Assembly (NCBI RefSeq): GCF_024347595.1
Contig: NZ_AP025506.1
Location: forward strand, 2,666,001 to 2,730,000
Source of the DNA: Vibrio pomeroyi
Lineage (GTDB): Bacteria > Pseudomonadota > Gammaproteobacteria > Enterobacterales > Vibrionaceae
Direction of reading: 5' to 3'
Length of the DNA: 64,000 nucleotides
A program made the position numbers and the translations under genes. The notes beneath the pieces are model-generated. The model was not told the DNA's origin, did no database searches, and saw only the letters and a program-made list of their open reading frames with translations. Shown one piece after another: positions 31,224 to 31,393 of this stretch (position 1 is the first letter of the stretch; every line of letters begins with the position of its first letter).

Positions 31224-31393
31224 CTCGTTATCTCGTTATCTCGTTATCTCGTATCTCGTATCTCGTATCTCGTATCTCGTATCTCGTATCTCGTATCTCG
31301 TATCTCGTATCTCGTATCTCGTATCTCGTATCTCGTATCTCGTATCTCGTATCTCGTATCTCGTATCTCGTATCTCGTATCTCGTATCTCGTA
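31224..31393. repeat. Heptanucleotide VNTR: 3 x CTCGTTAT + 20.9 x CTCGTAT
   Basis: Three 8-bp units (CTCGTTAT, 31224-31247) are followed by exactly 20 perfect 7-bp units (CTCGTAT, 31248-31387) and a 6-bp partial. It lies between the T-run of tfoR and the terminator of tfoS. Perfect identity over 140 bp means it is young or actively slipping. It is open in several frames on both strands only because a 7-bp unit without a stop codon cycles through all frames. Confidence 0.97.

Follow-up and report, generated by a model that had tools for sequence, protein, structure and literature searches.

A heptanucleotide array between tfoR and tfoS in Vibrio pomeroyi, and an IS3-family lineage of Vibrionaceae found mostly at such arrays

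Introduction

In the contingency repeats of phase-variable genes, copy number varies by slippage, and the repeat lies in the coding frame or promoter of the gene that is switched. Other bacterial repeats have a seven-base unit; those of Calothrix, for example, are called STRR. Heptanucleotide repeats of this kind count among the long simple sequence repeats (Mrazek and colleagues, 2007, as described in PMC4679880), and are reported to outnumber every other class in the majority of genomes surveyed. The TAACTGA arrays of Beggiatoaceae are the subject of PMC4679880, which suggests horizontal transfer as the means of their spread, no mechanism being evident. GGGAATC arrays of Xanthomonas are treated in PMC4692102, where the Calothrix repeats are also mentioned and where the heptamer repeats are described as generally not associated with insertion sequences (IS). 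Heptanucleotide arrays are recurrent in bacteria, yet their spread is unexplained. Another body of work concerns IS that target REP sequences, such as IS1397, ISKpn1, ISPsy8 and others (PMC1525189).

Here we consider an array of 7-bp units in a stretch of 64,000 nucleotides of Vibrio pomeroyi DNA (the window), situated between tfoR and tfoS, the RNA and protein products of which are treated in PMC11856585. This array and its relatives resemble the known heptanucleotide repeats in having 7-bp units, in being largely intergenic and dispersed, and in their variable copy number, but the unit is a different one. Moreover, they lie beside terminators or downstream of genes, whereas those of Beggiatoaceae are mostly found before start codons (PMC4679880), and they occur with a mobile element, whereas the repeats of PMC4692102 generally do not. 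The mobile element invites comparison with the REP-targeting IS (PMC1525189): like those IS, it would land in extragenic repeated DNA, it belongs to the IS3 family, which is represented among them, and its insertion point is consistent, but REP sequences are palindromic with a consensus, whereas we are dealing with direct heptamer arrays of several unrelated sequences. Our literature searches, a non-exhaustive survey of titles and the beginnings of abstracts that amounts to no proof of absence, returned no described IS landing at tandem or heptamer arrays, and nothing on heptamer arrays in Vibrio or on their association with IS.

An IS lineage that mostly sits at heptamer arrays, whatever their sequence, provides a testable link to the source of such arrays. 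A target rule based on array spacing would differ from a fixed consensus, and growth of arrays driven by the IS, if true, would give heptanucleotide arrays a source.

The array and its immediate surroundings

Positions 31224–31393 of the window (170 bases) consist, by exact string match and without a single mismatch, of three copies of the 8-bp unit CTCGTTAT (31224–31247, also reported by a repeat finder), which form a variant edge facing tfoR, followed by 20 copies of CTCGTAT and a partial CTCGTA (31248–31393; GAGATAC on the other strand), precisely the composition given in the original prediction. TRF assigned the array a period of 7, 24 copies and a score of 315. As a perfect tandem series of 7-bp units exceeding the length expected by chance, it is a long simple sequence repeat of the heptanucleotide class.

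On one side, tfoR occupies 31082–31182 on the plus strand (Rfam RF02100, 117.1 bits against a gathering threshold of 70), and ends in a predicted intrinsic terminator on the same strand (31144–31182, with a hairpin at 31144–31172 and a T-rich tail). On the other, a minus-strand gene (31475–34858) encodes 1127 amino acids from the listed TTG start, with an AraC-type helix-turn-helix and a Reg_prop propeller repeat; its product fits TfoS, which we take it to be from these domains and its place beside tfoR. The predicted terminator of this gene is a stem–loop at 31405–31430 on the minus strand, followed by a T-run on that strand. Scanning and folding therefore give a picture of two convergent genes, each with its own terminator, and of an array lying beyond both. 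It had been supposed that the array fills the space between the T-run of tfoR and the tfoS terminator: it does lie between them, but 41 bp separate it from the tfoR match and 11 bp from the tfoS terminator stem. Its position outside the coding frame or promoter of any switched gene distinguishes it from contingency repeats, with which it would share a copy number variable by slippage.

Two candidate identities were rejected. Direct reading shows that the heptanucleotide unit contains no stop codon in any frame, so open reading frames of 125, 70 and 62 amino acids cross the array; these merely reflect the stop-free unit, and do not mark a coding region. Nor is the array a structured RNA, as it folds no better than shuffled sequences on either strand, which also means that it contains no short palindrome of the REP kind.

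The tfoR–tfoS gap in other Vibrio genomes

We detected tfoR in 119 of 148 Vibrio genomes, and examined one neighbourhood in each (a second tfoR match in G078 was excluded). In 88 of the 119, the stretch examined contained no array. The counts by relatedness that follow exclude 14 of the 119 loci for which no TfoS was found in the sequence retrieved (G129 and G071 are two of these, an IS having displaced TfoS beyond it), and also three loci with TfoS identities of 70–85%, two of which had arrays. The C-terminus of TfoS was at least 85% identical in a close group of 20 genomes, including this one, and 17 of these had an array: a 7-mer in 14 (6.0 to 25.1 copies), a 6-mer in three and a 9-mer in one, with one genome having both 6-mer and 7-mer arrays. 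When the octamers are included, unit lengths in these 20 genomes are 6, 7, 8 or 9 bp. The three close genomes lacking an array each retain about one unit, and the T-run of tfoR and the terminator of tfoS are kept in all 20. The nearest relative examined, in which the aligned flanks are 95.5–96.4% identical, has 8.0 heptamers and no octamers. Below 70% TfoS identity, arrays were found in 11 of 82 genomes, eight of them being heptamers of several sequences. As a minor point, in four loci from other Vibrio species (L158, L173, L187 and L099) an array of CATCACG or TATCTCT heptamers starts 1–2 bases past the tfoR match.

All 13 named relatives examined had units in this gap, although copy number could be read only where the array was complete (two contigs break off within it, and one array holds a gap of Ns). 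The expectation that copy number would vary, which constancy across isolates would have contradicted, was borne out in a comparison between species, in which the number of heptamers ranges over the 6.0 to 25.1 given above for the close group. Two further arrays of the window vary in the same way. One, comprising 4.7 copies of GAGATTC at 26821–26853, lies between a stop codon and its terminator; at this locus, six of 11 named relatives had 3.4 to 12.4 units, one had about 1.4 (judged by eye) and four had another spacer. The other, 3.6 copies of TATCTCG in a convergent gap at 37660–37684, has 0 to 6.3 units in thirteen relatives.

A family of arrays and the background of perfect repeats

Repeated GAGATNC occurs at ten intergenic loci dispersed over this genome, the tfoR–tfoS array being one of them, and all are on chromosome 1 (contig 1; p about 0.012), a restriction for which we have no explanation. 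The middle base is constant inside each array (A, T or G) among the matches listed. With tfoR taken to be a gene, eight of the ten lie in convergent gaps and the other two separate genes that share a direction, so that the location between tfoR and tfoS, at first thought unusual, is instead typical of the family. Nine arrays have a terminator-like hairpin within about 30 bp and one at about 80 bp, distances that stand without a control set. Open reading frames of at least 80 amino acids overlap the array at four of the ten loci, and were judged spurious without recourse to gene annotation. At the 37660 locus, L039 has another heptamer as well: about six units of TTAGCAC stand a few bases from the TATCTCG units, at the end of the adjoining gene; about two units, which are likely to be a seed, occur at the corresponding place in L048 and L049.

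Among 148 Vibrio genomes sampled, repeated GAGATNC was found in 37, and the reversed pattern, meant as a control, in 31 (counted from lists), albeit with fewer matches than GAGATNC in most of the genomes that have it. GAGATNC therefore appears to be just one heptamer among several, which makes its family less remarkable than the number of its loci might imply. To set arrays in general against their background, 660 kb from other stretches of the same genome were scanned for perfect arrays (period 4–12, at least 2.8 copies and at least 16 bp); there were 11, including one heptamer of 4.4 copies, compared with one in a first-order Markov control. These stretches were picked once the GAGATNC positions were known and contain none of them, so the family is undercounted. 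Sorted by gap type, arrays were present there in 3 of the 67 convergent gaps, in 2 of the 190 tandem gaps and in none of the 59 divergent gaps; the corresponding figures for 620 kb from 15 other Vibrio genomes were 1 of 57, 0 of 167 and 0 of 54.

Compared with the 57 convergent gaps of the other Vibrio genomes, the tfoR–tfoS gap outside the close group has more arrays (11/82 versus 1/57, p 0.028), and compared with both sets of convergent controls it has more heptamers (8/82 versus 2/124, p 0.016). We regard this as a hint of enrichment only: the genomes are related, tfoR gaps are longer, an array itself lengthens the gap that holds it, and the 67 control gaps of this genome come from the stretches chosen after array positions were known and free of GAGATNC arrays.

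An IS3-family lineage at the arrays

In G129 and G071 the tfoR–tfoS array is split by an IS of 1.25 kb, and in G169 the IS stands at the array edge; both terminators are intact in all three. The IS also lies inside the orthologue of the 26821 array in G129, and at the site orthologous to the 37660 array in G115 and G169. The inserted element is 1252 bp long, with ends TGATGTGACCCC and GGGGCCATATCA forming short inverted repeats. It has the attributes of the IS3 family, namely an IS3-type transposase encoded in two frames, short inverted repeats and target duplications of 3–4 bp: OrfB matches the model NF033516 (4.4e-85, 286 bits, cut-off 160), while OrfA alone, at 52 bits, falls under the cut-off. 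Of 227 Vibrio genomes, 11 encode relatives of OrfB (E up to 1e-100, 64–100% identity); when the search was widened to 296 Vibrionaceae genomes, one more was gained, from another genus (G280). In the genome studied here there was no OrfB match at the same E value, but a solo IS right end of 32 bp adjoins a GAGATAC array (L251; G000:C1:2957863-2957887), and such ends, of 30–33 bp, adjoin arrays elsewhere too. A solo right end like that of L251 was seen in L246, L253 and L275 at what appears by eye to be the orthologous place, and similar ones in L244, L248 and L250.

The association of this lineage with arrays is unusual and strong. The flanks of 33 copies from 11 genomes were examined (a set that does not include three further copies each of G129 and G280, a single one of G104 or a partial one of G173), and 27 had a perfect tandem array of at least 2.4 units within 15 bp. 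Copies within one genome are not independent; counted by genome, nine of the 11 contain one or more copies beside an array. When the criterion was relaxed to an array up to 1000 bp upstream or up to 500 bp downstream of the transposase match, arrays accompanied 30 of 33 loci of the lineage (29 from Vibrio and four from G280, a set partly different from the 33 copies above) and 1 of 24 IS3 copies from outside it (p 1e-11, Fisher test). The latter, among the best matches in six related genomes, remained from 30 loci after the removal of six, two of which belonged to the lineage itself and four of which were fragments or second or weak matches. By both measures, then, most copies are in a single class of target, and by the looser one they are so well above other IS3 copies in related genomes. 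Five of the six copies that have no adjacent perfect array lie in similar degenerate repeats, judged by eye, and L270 lies in none. In L247, L249, L254 and L255 the IS ends have degenerate repeats (words like GGGATTCGAGTGGCGGGAT) and no perfect array; these may be decayed arrays.

Of the 27 copies, 25 have an array in the right flank and eight in the left, some copies having both. Left-flank arrays all have period 7, as do 22 of those on the right, the other three having period 8. The units at the IS are diverse, including TATCTCG, CATCTCG, AATCTCG, CATCTAG, ACCTAAT and CTATTGG, together with CGTTTAC, CCCAGAA, CCTAGAA and the octamer CTTAAACC, and all 14 copies at NATCTCG arrays share one orientation with respect to the array. 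A flanking duplication of 3–4 bp was present in 25 of the 33 copies, although a 3-bp match can arise by chance; in seven copies that split an array (L262, L264, L271, L274, L275, L284 and L286) the units to its left continue in register with those to its right if one copy of the duplication is discounted. Twelve of 22 copies in the clade lie at orthologues of seven of the ten arrays of this genome (loci that had been fetched on purpose), and here those seven loci have arrays without a full IS.

The notion that the array is an integral part of the IS was dismissed, since in L304 a duplication, CGT, that lies outside the unit separates the IS end from the array, and since an IS-free allele in G211, described below, already contains a seed.

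Landing site or source

We put at about 0.6 the probability that the tfoR–tfoS array is a simple 7-bp repeat grown by slippage in a tolerant gap, having no visible role for tfoR or tfoS and serving as a preferred landing site for the IS3 lineage. A short local seed may have been extended by replication slippage in a gap bounded by terminators, where a change of length would cost little; the array would be one of the family of like arrays on chromosome 1, and the IS lineage would insert within heptamer arrays or at their edges, in most cases with target duplications of 3–4 bp. The array, its family, their variation, the adjacency of the IS and the duplications are observed; growth by slippage, neutrality and choice of target as the cause of adjacency are inferred, the last from the in-phase arrays on both sides of some copies, the flanking duplications and the orthologous arrays without a full IS. 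In itself, the tfoR–tfoS array should be considered a heptanucleotide repeat of an ordinary kind at a site that tolerates it, and should not be taken for a competence switch. A regulatory part, as a spacer or modulator of read-through between tfoR and tfoS or as a contingency locus for competence, is suggested by its place between an sRNA and its activator and by its variable copy number, but seems very improbable for an array that is outside both transcripts as terminated, is unstructured, changes freely in unit and length, tolerates a 1.25-kb insertion in three relatives with terminators intact, and is missing from most tfoR-bearing genomes in the stretch examined. The same lack of structure, drift of unit and number, and intact terminators leave without support the earlier idea that copy number alters read-through or antisense overlap. 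Hardly more attractive is the proposal that the arrays are putative binding sites for a host protein, perhaps one concerned with chromosome organisation, through which the IS would find them: the recurrence of one unit at ten chromosome 1 loci and the uniform orientation at NATCTCG arrays accord with it, but the IS is also found at unrelated arrays (TTGGCTA, ACCTAAT, CCCAGAA and CTTAAACC) and copy number is not conserved.

Growth by slippage from local seeds nevertheless leaves several things unexplained, among them the presence of one unit at ten loci (even if the family is made less special by the frequency of the reversed pattern) and its confinement to chromosome 1. The same is true of the CTTAAACC arrays, which are dispersed over at least five loci in one of 227 Vibrio genomes (G104, L307–L328), with none in the other 226 searched. 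Neither would plain insertion into old arrays predict the asymmetry of the flanks, the longer array being the right-hand one in 22 of 27 copies and the left-hand one in five (p 0.0015; 22 to 4 if L283, where a contig end truncates the right flank, is excluded). How might such a bias arise? Conceivably the IS lineage makes the arrays, by inserting at sites where a short word is repeated at a distance of 7 bp, with replication associated with transposition then amplifying the right flank; IS-free arrays would be footprints of lost copies. Besides the right-hand bias, the solo right ends beside arrays, one of them in this genome, and the four different heptamers at the four copies examined (of seven) in G280 speak for this origin. 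So does a near-identical pair of genomes in which growth of an array coincides with insertion: over 1500 bp of left flank G071, with the IS, and G211, without it, are 99.87% identical, yet G211 has 1.6 ACCTAAT units and G071 has 8.6, beyond the right end of the IS; in an adjacent 8-mer array the two differ by a single unit. However, this is one pair, and the resemblance is weaker in the right flank (97.0% of 230 bp), which makes exchange with another strain a possible origin of the difference. At the same site, 30 of 218 matching genomes were examined, and the other 28 had 1–2 ACCTAAT units or another spacer (by eye); some genomes, such as G145 and G169, hold a different array. Against the IS as maker, most close relatives have the tfoR array without an IS, arrays at other loci do not differ clearly in length (by eye) whether or not they bear an IS, and, of the five CTTAAACC loci listed for G104, three have an IS at the left edge but two have no IS end within 200–260 bp. 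On balance we think this origin rather unlikely, and the preferred reading remains that of slippage-grown arrays used as landing sites. A more speculative reading, which we put forward tentatively, is that this lineage of Vibrionaceae recognises a short word repeated at a spacing of 7 bp (or 8 bp), not any single sequence, and that each insertion causes the array on the right of the element to grow; the tfoR–tfoS array and its relatives would then be both footprints and safe harbours of the lineage.

Other repeats

Two further kinds of repeat may be mentioned. A dispersed element starting ATACCAATCGTAGTAAATAACT was seen at the 26821 locus in L043 and at the L257 locus in L381; the L043 copy ends ATTGGTAT, and resembles a small transposon-type repeat. 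Within the window, 27080–27381 is occupied by 3.3 copies of a 91-bp repeat containing the palindrome-like CGTCATTCCCTACAGTGAGGGACGAACGTGATAGGGAATCT, which resembles the REP type.
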